This document shows, piece by piece, positions 23,014 to 52,970 of a stretch of 64,000 bases of DNA. The DNA comes from Deltaproteobacteria bacterium (GTDB lineage Bacteria; Desulfobacterota; Dissulfuribacteria; Dissulfuribacterales; DYLC01). Below the pieces are notes generated by a model. It was not told where the DNA came from. It ran no database searches and saw only the letters and a list, made by a program, of their open reading frames with translations. The stretch lies in contig JAQVIJ010000002.1 of assembly GCA_028695735.1 (NCBI GenBank), positions 271,852 to 335,851 of the forward strand. Direction: 5' to 3'. How positions within the stretch are numbered: the stretch's first letter is position 1; each line of letters opens with the position of its first letter. The position numbers were made by a program, and so were the translations under genes.

Positions 23014-23154
23014 AAAAGGACAGACACATTTCTACTTAACTTTTTTAATTAAATCTCTTGGGGGCGGCAGCGGTGAAGCATTTGTTCCATGCGTCGCATA
23101 ACTAATCAAAAAGATTTGATTAAAAATATTATTCAAGAATGTGACTGTCCTTTT
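23014..23154. mobile_element. Short MITE-like element, copy 1 (internally deleted)
   Basis: TIRs AAAAGGACAGACACATTTCTACTTAACTTTTTTAATTAAATCT / revcomp AAAAGGACAGTCACATTCTTGAATAATATTTTTAATCAAATCT. Confidence 0.8.
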
Positions 23155-23159
23155 TTTCA

Positions 23160-23731: not shown

Positions 23732-23941
23732 ATGGAAGATCGATGGCTCTCCGTGGATGAGATCGCGGCCTATCTCGGCATCAAGCGGGATACGGTCTAC
23801 AAATGGATATCTGAAAAGCAAATGCCGGCGCACCGGATGGGCCGCCTCTGGAAATTCCGCAAGGAAGAGGTGGACGAGTGGGTAAAGACAGGGGGAGCAG
23901 CGGAGTCCGATTCTCAGAATTCGGATACGGGGAAGAAATGA
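23732..23941 (+). CDS. Excisionase-family helix-turn-helix DNA-binding protein
   Basis: WLSVDEIAAYLGIKRDTVYKWISEKQMPAHRMGRLWKFRKEEVDEWV. Confidence 0.9.
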   Translation: MEDRWLSVDEIAAYLGIKRDTVYKWISEKQMPAHRMGRLWKFRKEEVDEWVKTGGAAESDSQNSDTGKK

Positions 23942-25269
23942 TGGATGTTCTGCTGACATTTACAGGATTTCATGACCCTTATTTCAAGGGATTGGTTGAC
24001 CAGGAGGAACAGCCTGGACCCATCCTTTCCCTCCTATCCACACGCTCATTCGATCATATTTTTCTCTTCGATACCCCAAGCACGCAGCGGGTTACCGGGG
24101 AAACAAAGGACGCTATCAAGAAGATCCATCACGGGAGTGAGGTCCACGTTCTCGAAATCAACCTTGCCGATCCGACGAATTACCAAGAGATATTCAGGGG
24201 GCTCAGAGCTCATCTTCATCGCATCATCGAGGATTTTTCTTCAGCACGCTTCTTTGTCGCAGTCGCGTCGGGAACGCCCCATATGCATGCCTGCTGGGTT
24301 CTCCTGACGGCCTCCGGCGAAATTCCTGCCCGCATCCTCCATGTGCGACCACCGCATTTTGTAACAAAACAACACCCGCTCGTGACCGAAGTGGATTTGT
24401 CCTCGCGTGAGTTCCCTACCGTCAGGTTCCAGGATGTATCGATTCCTGTTGAAGAGAGCCAAGCCGATGTTGATTCCGTCAGAGTGCAGCTTGGCATTGT
24501 GGGAGATCACTCCGCGATGCAGCGTTCACTCGAGATGGGTGCGATGTTGGCTCCATCACAGGCCCCGGTCCTCATCTTTGGCGAGACAGGGACCGGCAAG
24601 GAGCTATTCGCACGGTACATTCACCGATTGAGTGGAAGGCCGCGAGAGACCTTTGTCGCTGTAAATTGTGCAGCGATTCCAGAAGACCTTGTCGAAAGCC
24701 TGCTGTTCGGTCACAAGAAAGGAGCCTTTACTGGCGCGATCAACGACCAGGTTGGCAAGTTCGATACGGCGGATAAGGGGACCCTTTTCCTTGATGAGCT
24801 CGGAGAGCTTCCCATACCCGCACAGGCCAAGTTGCTGAGAGTTCTGCAAGATGGACTGGTAGAGCCGATTGGACAAGCCAAGGCGCATAAGGTGGACGTG
24901 CGGATTGTGGGTGCAACGAATCGGGACTTACGCAAGCTGGTGAGGCAAGGTAAATTCCGTGAAGATCTTTTTTATAGGCTCAACGTCGGTGAAATCAAAC
25001 TTCCTCCACTCCGTGAAAGACGCTCTGACATTCCCAAACTGGCGCTTCATATTCTCGATAGGTTGAATGGCTCTTTGCGACGACCCAAGAGATTGTCGGC
25101 GGAAGCCTTGTCTAGGCTGCAATCTCACAACTGGGCGGGGAATGTTCGCGATTTGGAAAACGTCATCGAGAGGTCTGTTCGCCTTTGCCGCAATGATGTT
25201 TTGGACGCAGACGACCTCCTAATCATAAACAAAAGGACAGACACATTTCTGAGCAACTTTTTTAACTAA
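23938..25269 (+). pseudogene. Sigma-54-dependent AAA+ activator with RtcR-like (putative CARF) N-terminal domain; 3' end truncated by mobile element copy 2
   Basis: GETGTGKELFA, GAFTGA, WAGNVRDLENVIER; the ORF ends in IINKRTDTFLSNFFN, encoded by the element TIR; no C-terminal HTH. Confidence 0.8.
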
Positions 25270-25683
25270 ATCTCTTTGGGCGGCAGCGGTGAAGCATTTG
25301 TTCCATGCGGCGCATAACTGCCCTCCTTGGCAGGATGCGCCGCCGGCGCCCTCCGTGGCGCCTATTTCACAAACACTTCACCACTGCCGCCCTTTTCGTC
25401 CCTGCGGAACTCCATGTTTATAACGGATGTCCTATTCATTCCTACTGCAATCCCACTGATAACAACGGATTGACCTGCTGAAGTAATGAGCCGGTACTTC
25501 TACCAATAAAAATCGCAGAATTGGCCTTTACCATCATGTTCACCAAAGTGCAAAGGGTATGTGCTGCGGTGAAGCGTCGTTTATGATTGGGTGTGGGGTT
25601 CCGGAGGGGCGACTGAAGGAATTGGCATAACTAATCAAAAATATTTGATTAAAAATATTATTCAAGAATGTGACTGTCCTTTT
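25231..25683. mobile_element. MITE-like element, copy 2 (full length ~453 bp)
   Basis: Left TIR AAAAGGACAGACACATTTCTGAGCAAC..., right TIR ...CAAGAATGTGACTGTCCTTTT; carries the structured module. Confidence 0.82.
25278..25392 (-). ncRNA. Structured three-way-junction module, copy in element 2
   Basis: Outer stem GGGCGGCAGTGGTGAAG/CTTCACCGCTGCCGCCC; inner hairpins GGCGCC/GGCGCC and GCGGCGCAT/ATGCGCCGC. Confidence 0.5.
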
Positions 25684-26089
25684 TTTCTTATTTTTTTCAG
25701 TCTTCAGCGCAAGTTCAAGGCGAAGACGTTCTTCATCCATGTGTCGCGCTTCGCGAAACTCTGCGATTATATTAAAAGCCGGGTGGACCAGACCATCCTG
25801 GGCAGAAACAACCGCTCGCGCGGCATTCCGAACTATGACGCATTTCAAAGTTACGAGGCGGAGCAACTGCGGCATGGCCAATGAGCGTCATATATGGAGT
25901 CGCCTGTCAGCCGCGCCGACCACTGGCTCCTGCCCTGATTGTAAAATCCTAAAGAAACCTGGCCCGGCATTGTTCGCTTCATGCTCTCTTCATGATGGCG
26001 TTTTATAGTGGTGTCAAACGGCAGGAACAGGACGACGGTCGTCTTGCCGATGTGACTGCCGGAATAACCAGACAACAGGAGGTATCGTC

Positions 26090-34523: not shown

Positions 34524-34722
34524 TAAACGAAGATACTAATCCGAGCGTTGATATTTAGACATAGCCGAGCACATAGGAACATTCCGGATGTTTGAAAAAG
34601 TTGCAGACAAACTTGGGCATCTTCTGAAGACGCCGCAAACAGCCCAATGCTGCAGACTTCAATTGAAAGGACAGAAAAAGGACAGTCACATTCCTGAACA
34701 ACTTTTTTAATTAAATCTATTG

Positions 34723-34839
34723 GGGGCGGCAGCGGTGAAGCATTTGTTCCATGCGGCGCATAACTGCCATCCTTGGCAGGATGCGCCGCCGGCGCCCTCC
34801 ATGGCGCCTATTCCACAAACACTCCACCACTGCCGCCCC
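34723..34839 (-). ncRNA. Structured three-way-junction module, left copy in element 3
   Basis: Outer stem GGGGCGGCAGTGGTGGAG/CTTCACCGCTGCCGCCCC with G-U pairs; GCGGCGCAT/ATGCGCCGC inner hairpin. Confidence 0.5.
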
Positions 34840-35169
34840 TTCTCGTCCCTGCGGAACTCCATGTTTATAACGGATGTCCTATTCATTCCCACTGCAATCC
34901 CACTGATAACGAATTAACCTGCTGGAATAATGAGCCGGCACTGCTGCCAATAAAAATCGCTGAAAATCGCTGGCTGAACCGGCATTTCTGCCAATAAAAA
35001 AAGTGGAATTGGCCTTTATCCTCATGTTAACCAAAATTCAAAGGATATGTGCTGCTTTAAAGCGGTGTTTATGATTGGACGTGGGGTTTCAGAAAGGGTG
35101 TTAACCAAAGTCCAAAGTGTCTATGCCTTTTTTTAAGCGGCTTCTGAGGTAGGATGTGGAGGTGGGGAG

Positions 35170-35283
35170 GGGCGAGGGTAGCCGGTGTTTGTGGAATAGG
35201 CGCCACGAGGGCGCCGGCCCCACATTCTCCGCCAAGAAGGTCGGTTATGTGGGGCATAAAACAAATGCCGGCTGCCCTCGCCC
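35170..35283 (+). ncRNA. Structured three-way-junction module, right copy in element 3
   Basis: Outer stem GGGCGAGGGTAGCCGG/CCGGCTGCCCTCGCCC; inner hairpin GCCCCACAT/ATGTGGGGC. Confidence 0.5.
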
Positions 35284-35308
35284 AGACATTGAATTGTCAC
35301 CTCATAAT

Positions 35309-52600: not shown

Positions 52601-52847
52601 TGTGGCTCCGGCACCACGGCCTATGTGGCCGAGCAGTGGGGCCGGCGCTGGATCACCTGCACCCGAATGGTCGGGACAGGGACTGCCCGATTCCAGCGAT
52701 ATGCAGTCATGGAGGAATAGTGCCTTTGCATTGCCTCATCAACGCCATGAGGCACTACTCTAATTTATGAACGAAAGTGTCTCATTTCCATTGACACGGT
52801 CCGCCAGTATTGCATTATATCATACCAGGGGATTTGTCAATTTTTTA

Positions 52848-52950
52848 GCGGGAGTGTTTGTGAACGTAGAGGCCAACAATGGCACCAGCGGCACATCACC
52901 GCCATGGAGGGCGGTTATGTGCCGCATAGAACAACTCTTCATTGTCGCCT
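52848..52950 (+). ncRNA. Divergent structured module related to those in elements 2 and 3
   Basis: GTGTTTGTGAACGTAGAGGCCAACAATGGCACCAGCGGCACATCACCGCCATGGAGGGCGGTTATGTGCCGCATAGAACAA; stem GCGGCACAT/ATGTGCCGC. Confidence 0.45.
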
Positions 52951-52970
52951 AAAAAGATTTGAATTGCGAT

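Follow-up and report, generated by a model that had tools for sequence, protein, structure and literature searches.

Modules in the window

The window, a stretch of 64,000 nucleotides, contains four full copies of a structured module, which were recovered with R1, a covariance model (CM) built from 12 copies of the window's genome, together with a fifth, truncated copy (Table 1). The initial annotation had placed the four full modules to within a few bases of these positions, and the partial module that it gave at 23063-23100 is a real repeat by BLAST, namely a truncated repeat that contains the outer half of a module. The window copies are intergenic, and those at 34.7-35.3 kb and 52.8 kb lie between convergent open frames. 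An open frame for an RtcR-like sigma-54 activator with a CARF-like region (23878-25269, plus strand) stands directly before the module at 25277. No Rfam family matched at the module sites in the window at gathering thresholds. Three features went beyond the initial annotation: the modules at 34723 (minus strand) and 35169 (plus strand) are the paired inverted ends of one ~0.56-kb repeat, the module recurs at high copy number in the genome, and the hairpin loops read ANGGA.

Table 1. Modules and associated features of the window; the R1 scores are those of copies that were also in the R1 training set.
Feature	Position	Strand	Description	Evidence
Full module, A type	25277-25393	-	Three-way junction; loops ACGGAG and AAGGAG	CM R1 125.6 bits; RNA MFE z -12.3
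Full module, A type	34723-34839	-	Loops AUGGAG and AAGGAU; left end of intact element	CM R1 122.3 bits; BLAST family
Full module, B type	35169-35284	+	Loops ACGAG and AAGAAG, both degenerate here; right end of the 34723-35284 element	CM R1 119.0 bits; z -10.1
Diverged solitary module, C type	52845-52951	+	Hairpin 2 loop AUGGAG kept	CM R1 66.9 bits; z -3.8
Truncated copy	23014-23155		A-module outer half (23061-23103) between GGACAG-type repeats facing each other	BLAST match 23014-23103; motif scan
Intact dispersed repeat	34723-35284		A module (-), ~330-nt middle without evident gene, B module (+)	BLAST
Element copy	25231-25684		Keeps the A module and most of the middle but not the B end, which is replaced; inverted AAAAGGACAG..CTGTCCTTTT repeats on either side	BLAST; motif scan
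Recurrent flank AAAAGGACAGTCACATTCCTGAACAACTTTTTTAATTAAATCT	34676-34722	+	Adjoins many A ends genome-wide	Flank listing
Promoter-like match TTGACA-16-CATTAT	52791-52818	+	Upstream of C module	Weak: 1 found against 0.4 expected

Fold and covariation of the module

Single-strand folding of the copies at 25277, 35169 and 52845 gave a three-way junction, with the outer stem, the TTTGT/ACAAA helix, the GGCGCC hairpin and hairpin 2 as originally described (MFE z-scores in Table 1). In the 52845 copy, which is degenerate, most of the outer stem is lost and hairpin 1 is altered or decayed. Across 32 distinct sequences from four genomes, two-sided compensation was found in 27 of 43 pairs, including 11 of the 20 pairs of the inner hairpins, and none of 500 shuffles reached the observed covariation values. 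Standard pairs filled 94.9% of the cells, compared with 35-49% when the partners were slid, percentages that lean toward the model's structure, to which the alignment was fitted. These results demonstrate that the fold is real and conserved over divergent lineages, in agreement with the original description of a covarying three-way junction that is a structured RNA or ssDNA element.

The initial annotation had also argued that compensatory change implies selection on the fold. Compensation is indeed present, but the conclusion was too strong: matched changes are not by themselves sufficient proof that selection acts on an RNA, because inverted repeats can correct each other, and arm-to-arm templated correction in mobile palindromes yields the same pattern. 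Recent stem mutations comprised 43 G-U and 31 A-C events (P = 0.20), with 18 G-U and 19 A-C events in the two relatives G008 and G015, and an RNA-specific tolerance of G-U over A-C in the stems was not significant overall. The mutations thus show no clear RNA-strand bias, indicating that single copies seem to decay neutrally. Such decay is expected of MITEs, and selection, if any, must work at the level of the active copies or of the whole family.

A dispersed repeat in the window's genome

In the window's genome (G000; 2.22 Mb in 9 contigs) the modules form a dispersed repeat, with at least 40 copies of each module type by BLAST. We recovered at least 46 full A-type and at least 46 full B-type modules, as well as at least 60 and 59 outer halves, all lower bounds from ~0.2 Mb of genome stretches. 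Counting both ends gives at least 90 modules, and we estimate ~100 copies. The repeating unit is an element of ~0.56 kb, in which an A module (read on the minus strand) and a B module (read on the plus strand) are inverted ends around a middle of ~330 nt. It was found intact or in part at many loci, often in A-B-A-B arrays. Since its flanks come in a few recurrent kinds, such as AAAAGGACAG(A/T)CACATTC.., the element boundaries in this genome are composite, and the flank listing of G000 loci revealed no clear target duplication. High copy number and inverted ends, which would fit a MITE, stand beside composite flanks here.

Three further observations concern this genome. Many B ends are followed, after a few tens of bases, by another common repeat, GGGGATTGCTTCGCTTCGCTCGCAATGAC (for example at loci L073 and L082); a tandem array with a period of ~196 bp is built from the B module's right half and a spacer (L064, G000:C4:79500-83500); and four modules lie ~2-3 kb from the sole csrA gene (C8:277789-277947; L116, G000:C8:274000-285000), a proximity that may be due to chance given the clustering of modules.

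Distribution in other genomes

DNA BLAST of 40 relatives gave no module match. Model R1, although trained on the window's genome alone, found divergent copies in other genomes of the same order: at least 90 in G008, 39 in G015 and one in G006. The copies in G008 and G015 have the same fold as those in G000, with a sequence too diverged for BLAST. A broader model, R2, added weak matches within the class (G001, G025 and G035) and, among 395 sampled genomes, four copies in G358, which belongs to another class of the phylum. These four (L136-L139) form a dispersed repeat in a single-contig genome; they share the two ANGGA hairpins of the module, and their outer stems covary. Plasmid and phage searches returned no match to the module, nor did a pattern search of viral contigs. 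Pattern matches in Xenophilus and Frigidibacter are chance matches, as the CM gave no match in the former and an E-value of 0.07 in the latter.

Several genomes of the order also carry another dispersed family whose members have two ANGGA hairpins (CGAGCACGGAAGG..CATGGA..CCATGGATGG..CGCAGG, followed by TTTTCTTTGGTTC..TTTCTTTTGG), with 2-13 copies and scores of 34-36 bits against the Rfam family TwoAYGGAY; its loci include L118:1396-1513 (G001), L120:1501-1614 (G025) and L189-L208.

The module is carried by a MITE in two relatives

In G008 and G015 the module fills most of a MITE of 174-175 bp with the ends CCTGAATCCG/CGGATTCAGG. The end sequence has 184 matches in G008 and 46 in G015. Of 31 MITE copies, 11 lie between exact 5-bp target duplications, compared with 0.9 expected (maximum 4 in 500 shuffles), and 19 do so when one mismatch is allowed. 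The element is short, lacks a gene, and shows terminal inverted repeats, target duplications and high copy number, demonstrating that the module is mobile in these two relatives as part of a MITE with 5-bp target duplications. The module lies in either orientation inside the MITE, and some copies in both genomes have other ends.

The CCT.. ends and the 5-bp duplications suggested an IS1380-type transposase (PF13701) as the mover. Only two partial matches were found, both in G008, with none in G015 or G000, and shared ends were not demonstrated; one of these remnants adjoins a MITE copy, which does not prove that it moves the MITE. An integron attC site, considered for the GCATAAC/GTTATG boxes, was dropped by eye, as the boxes misfit RYYYAAC/GTTRRRY and the paired inverted layout misfits a cassette array.

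Hairpin loops match the CsrA recognition consensus

The two hairpins are capped by ANGGAX hexaloops. The high-affinity consensus for Csr/Rsm proteins is ANGGAX set directly on a stem, and leaving out N lowers the affinity (PMC4005645). The typical hairpin loops are AUGGAC or AUGGAU in G008, G015 and G006 (both occur in the G006 copy), and ANGGAU and AUGGAC/U are those of G358. Over 44 copies in G008 and G015, A, G, G and A were 98-100% conserved in both loops, compared with 80-89% for X. In G000, 87 of the 92 A and B copies retain ANGGA in hairpin 2, with T, A or G as N, and the loop of this hairpin is ANGGAG/T in most copies. Among 93 hairpin-2 loops of this genome, 5 of 372 core letters (A, G, G, A) were changed, compared with 53 of 186 at N and X; the copies are related, so that a Fisher P value for these counts is no true probability. 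Hairpin 1 of G000, on the other hand, has lost ANGGA in most copies (ACGAG in 44 of 92 and ATGAAG in 13 of 92). Further GGA triplets (GUGGA, CAUGGAA) lie in the junction, and csrA was present in all genomes checked (G000, G006, G008 and G015).

The loci of G006 and G358 with conserved loops had first been retrieved by loop-informed models. To reduce this circularity, we used R3, a model trained without G006 or G358 in which both loops were masked as N. R3 nevertheless matched G006 at 43.9 bits and G358 at 32-36 bits, indicating that the ANGGA loops of these genomes are unnecessary for the match.

No promoter or terminator is carried consistently by the modules: one promoter-like match was found, before the 52845 copy, and no terminator was seen reading out of a module. 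Selection for read-through, looked for as an orientation bias toward the upstream gene, was not seen in G008 and G015, where 17 of 38 copies were co-oriented.

Comparison with known RNAs and repeats

The nearest Rfam family to the module and its related modules is TwoAYGGAY (RF01731, clan CL00106), which has been proposed to bind CsrA (PMC4333381) and whose clan, the CsrB/RsmZ clan, also includes PrrB_RsmZ. It scored 28.8 bits at 25277 and 30.8-37.5 bits in G001, G025 and G358, all below the gathering cut-off of 43 bits, and did not appear among the Rfam matches listed for G008, G015 and G006. Under the Rfam threshold, the module does not belong to this family. In both, a closing stem is combined with two hairpins that carry A-Y/N-GGA-Y/X hexaloops: the enclosing outer stem is present in the module, and AYGGAY terminal loops occur on two hairpins in G008, G015 and G006 and partly in G000, where hairpin 1 is often degenerate. 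However, the stem sequences are unrelated, and the module occurs in ~100 dispersed copies and is MITE-borne in relatives, whereas no description of TwoAYGGAY as mobile was found in the literature searched. We file the module as a TwoAYGGAY variant with a new carrier.

The sponge RNAs CsrB/CsrC and RsmX/Y/Z, each encoded by a single chromosomal gene that has its own promoter and terminator, resemble the module in having multiple GGA sites in hairpin loops together with unpaired GGAs. Unlike them, the module is short, repeated and without its own promoter or terminator. A candidate chromosomal Csr sRNA was seen in G015 (L089:2810-2924), with a weak PrrB_RsmZ score of 26 bits (cut-off 44) and a terminator-like hairpin and U-tract at its end. 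Among repeats, QMITE1 and QMITE2 of Coxiella are likewise short and stably folded, with terminal and direct repeats and a high copy number (~50), and some of their copies are transcribed into sRNAs (PMC5896051). CsrA and GGA loops are not mentioned for them (PMC5896051), and unlike theirs, the internal fold of the module is conserved across genera.

Interpretation and alternative explanations

We hold with about even confidence that the module is a TwoAYGGAY-like RNA element, borne on a high-copy non-autonomous mobile repeat and predicted to bind CsrA when transcribed. Two hairpins branch from the long closing stem, and their ANGGAX tips would act as CsrA/RsmA recognition elements. Since promoters and terminators are not consistently carried, a copy would probably be transcribed by read-through from adjacent genes, and its two hairpins would then hold one CsrA dimer. 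The ~100 copies could jointly form a dispersed CsrA decoy; alternatively, transcripts into which they insert may gain CsrA sites in their 3' regions. Transcription, CsrA binding and an effect on the Csr network are what we infer from the sequences. The scans for promoters and terminators, the orientation of the copies and the stem mutations lend this reading no support, and the loss of ANGGA from hairpin 1 in most G000 copies and the TwoAYGGAY scores under the cut-off speak against it.

The main rival, to which we give appreciable though lesser weight, is that the module is only the palindromic core of a MITE and acts as DNA, with the RNA fold as a by-product and the arms kept matched by template-switch correction of inverted repeats or by a requirement of the transposase. 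The MITE ends and target duplications fit this explanation, as does the overlap of the outer-stem ends with the terminal repeat in G008 and G015. A block variant, ATGAG/CTCAT, present on both arms of some B copies and on one arm of others, points the same way, and so do the stem mutations without clear RNA-strand bias and the lack of consistent promoters. However, it does not predict ANGGA loops that are strand-specific in several lineages with N left free, nor covarying inner hairpins, nor the same core beside different flanks in G000, G008/G015, G006 and G358. Selection at the RNA level is supported chiefly by these strand-specific loops.

Starting from the reading as a CsrA-binding RNA element, we tentatively suggest, as a bolder and rather doubtful extension, that a selfish MITE family took up a CsrA-binding RNA module and spreads it, placing ~100 mobile decoys or docking sites in one genome, and that each insertion rewires the Csr network or dampens CsrA to the benefit of the element. 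Known CsrA-sponge RNAs are encoded by single chromosomal genes, and bacterial MITEs are mostly regarded as genomic clutter. A conserved two-site RNA of the CsrA type, raised to ~100 copies through transposition, would join the two, and mobile DNA would distribute the binding sites of a global regulator. The result would also bear on the unassigned TwoAYGGAY family outside Gammaproteobacteria.

It is improbable that the module is a REP-like stabiliser or attenuator of 3' untranslated regions, which would protect or end neighbouring transcripts with its loop sequence incidental. The fold is very stable and the window copies lie between genes, in two places between convergent frames, but no U-tract follows the stem, the loops are conserved beyond need, and orientation is independent of the upstream gene. 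Very improbable is a REP/BIME element mobilised by RAYT, a Y1 transposase: high copy number, paired inverted modules and two Y1_Tnp domains are found in G000, but neither domain is linked to modules, no module being seen near either by eye and the GGACAG repeat lying near neither gene, and the terminal repeats and 5-bp duplications of the relatives are a DDE-type signature. The HEARO/OMEGA RNA (RF02033) of an IscB/TnpB system, to which the initial annotation had likened the module for its general look and which is likewise a structured, branched RNA able to occur apart from its nuclease, is the least probable of all, as RF02033 gave no CM match even at E <= 10, none of 10 neighbouring proteins scanned carried an IscB/TnpB domain, and the best Rfam relative is TwoAYGGAY.

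The two Y1_Tnp loci of G000 have features of their own. One lies in frame inside a long, DNA methyltransferase-like open frame, without a stop codon, as a Y1_Tnp (HUH) domain (L061:610-3231, G000:C5:30587-33208). The other is a Y1_Tnp gene amid GTAGGGGC..GCCCCTAC palindromes, which look like a classical RAYT/REP system distinct from the module (L062, G000:C8:329729-332917).
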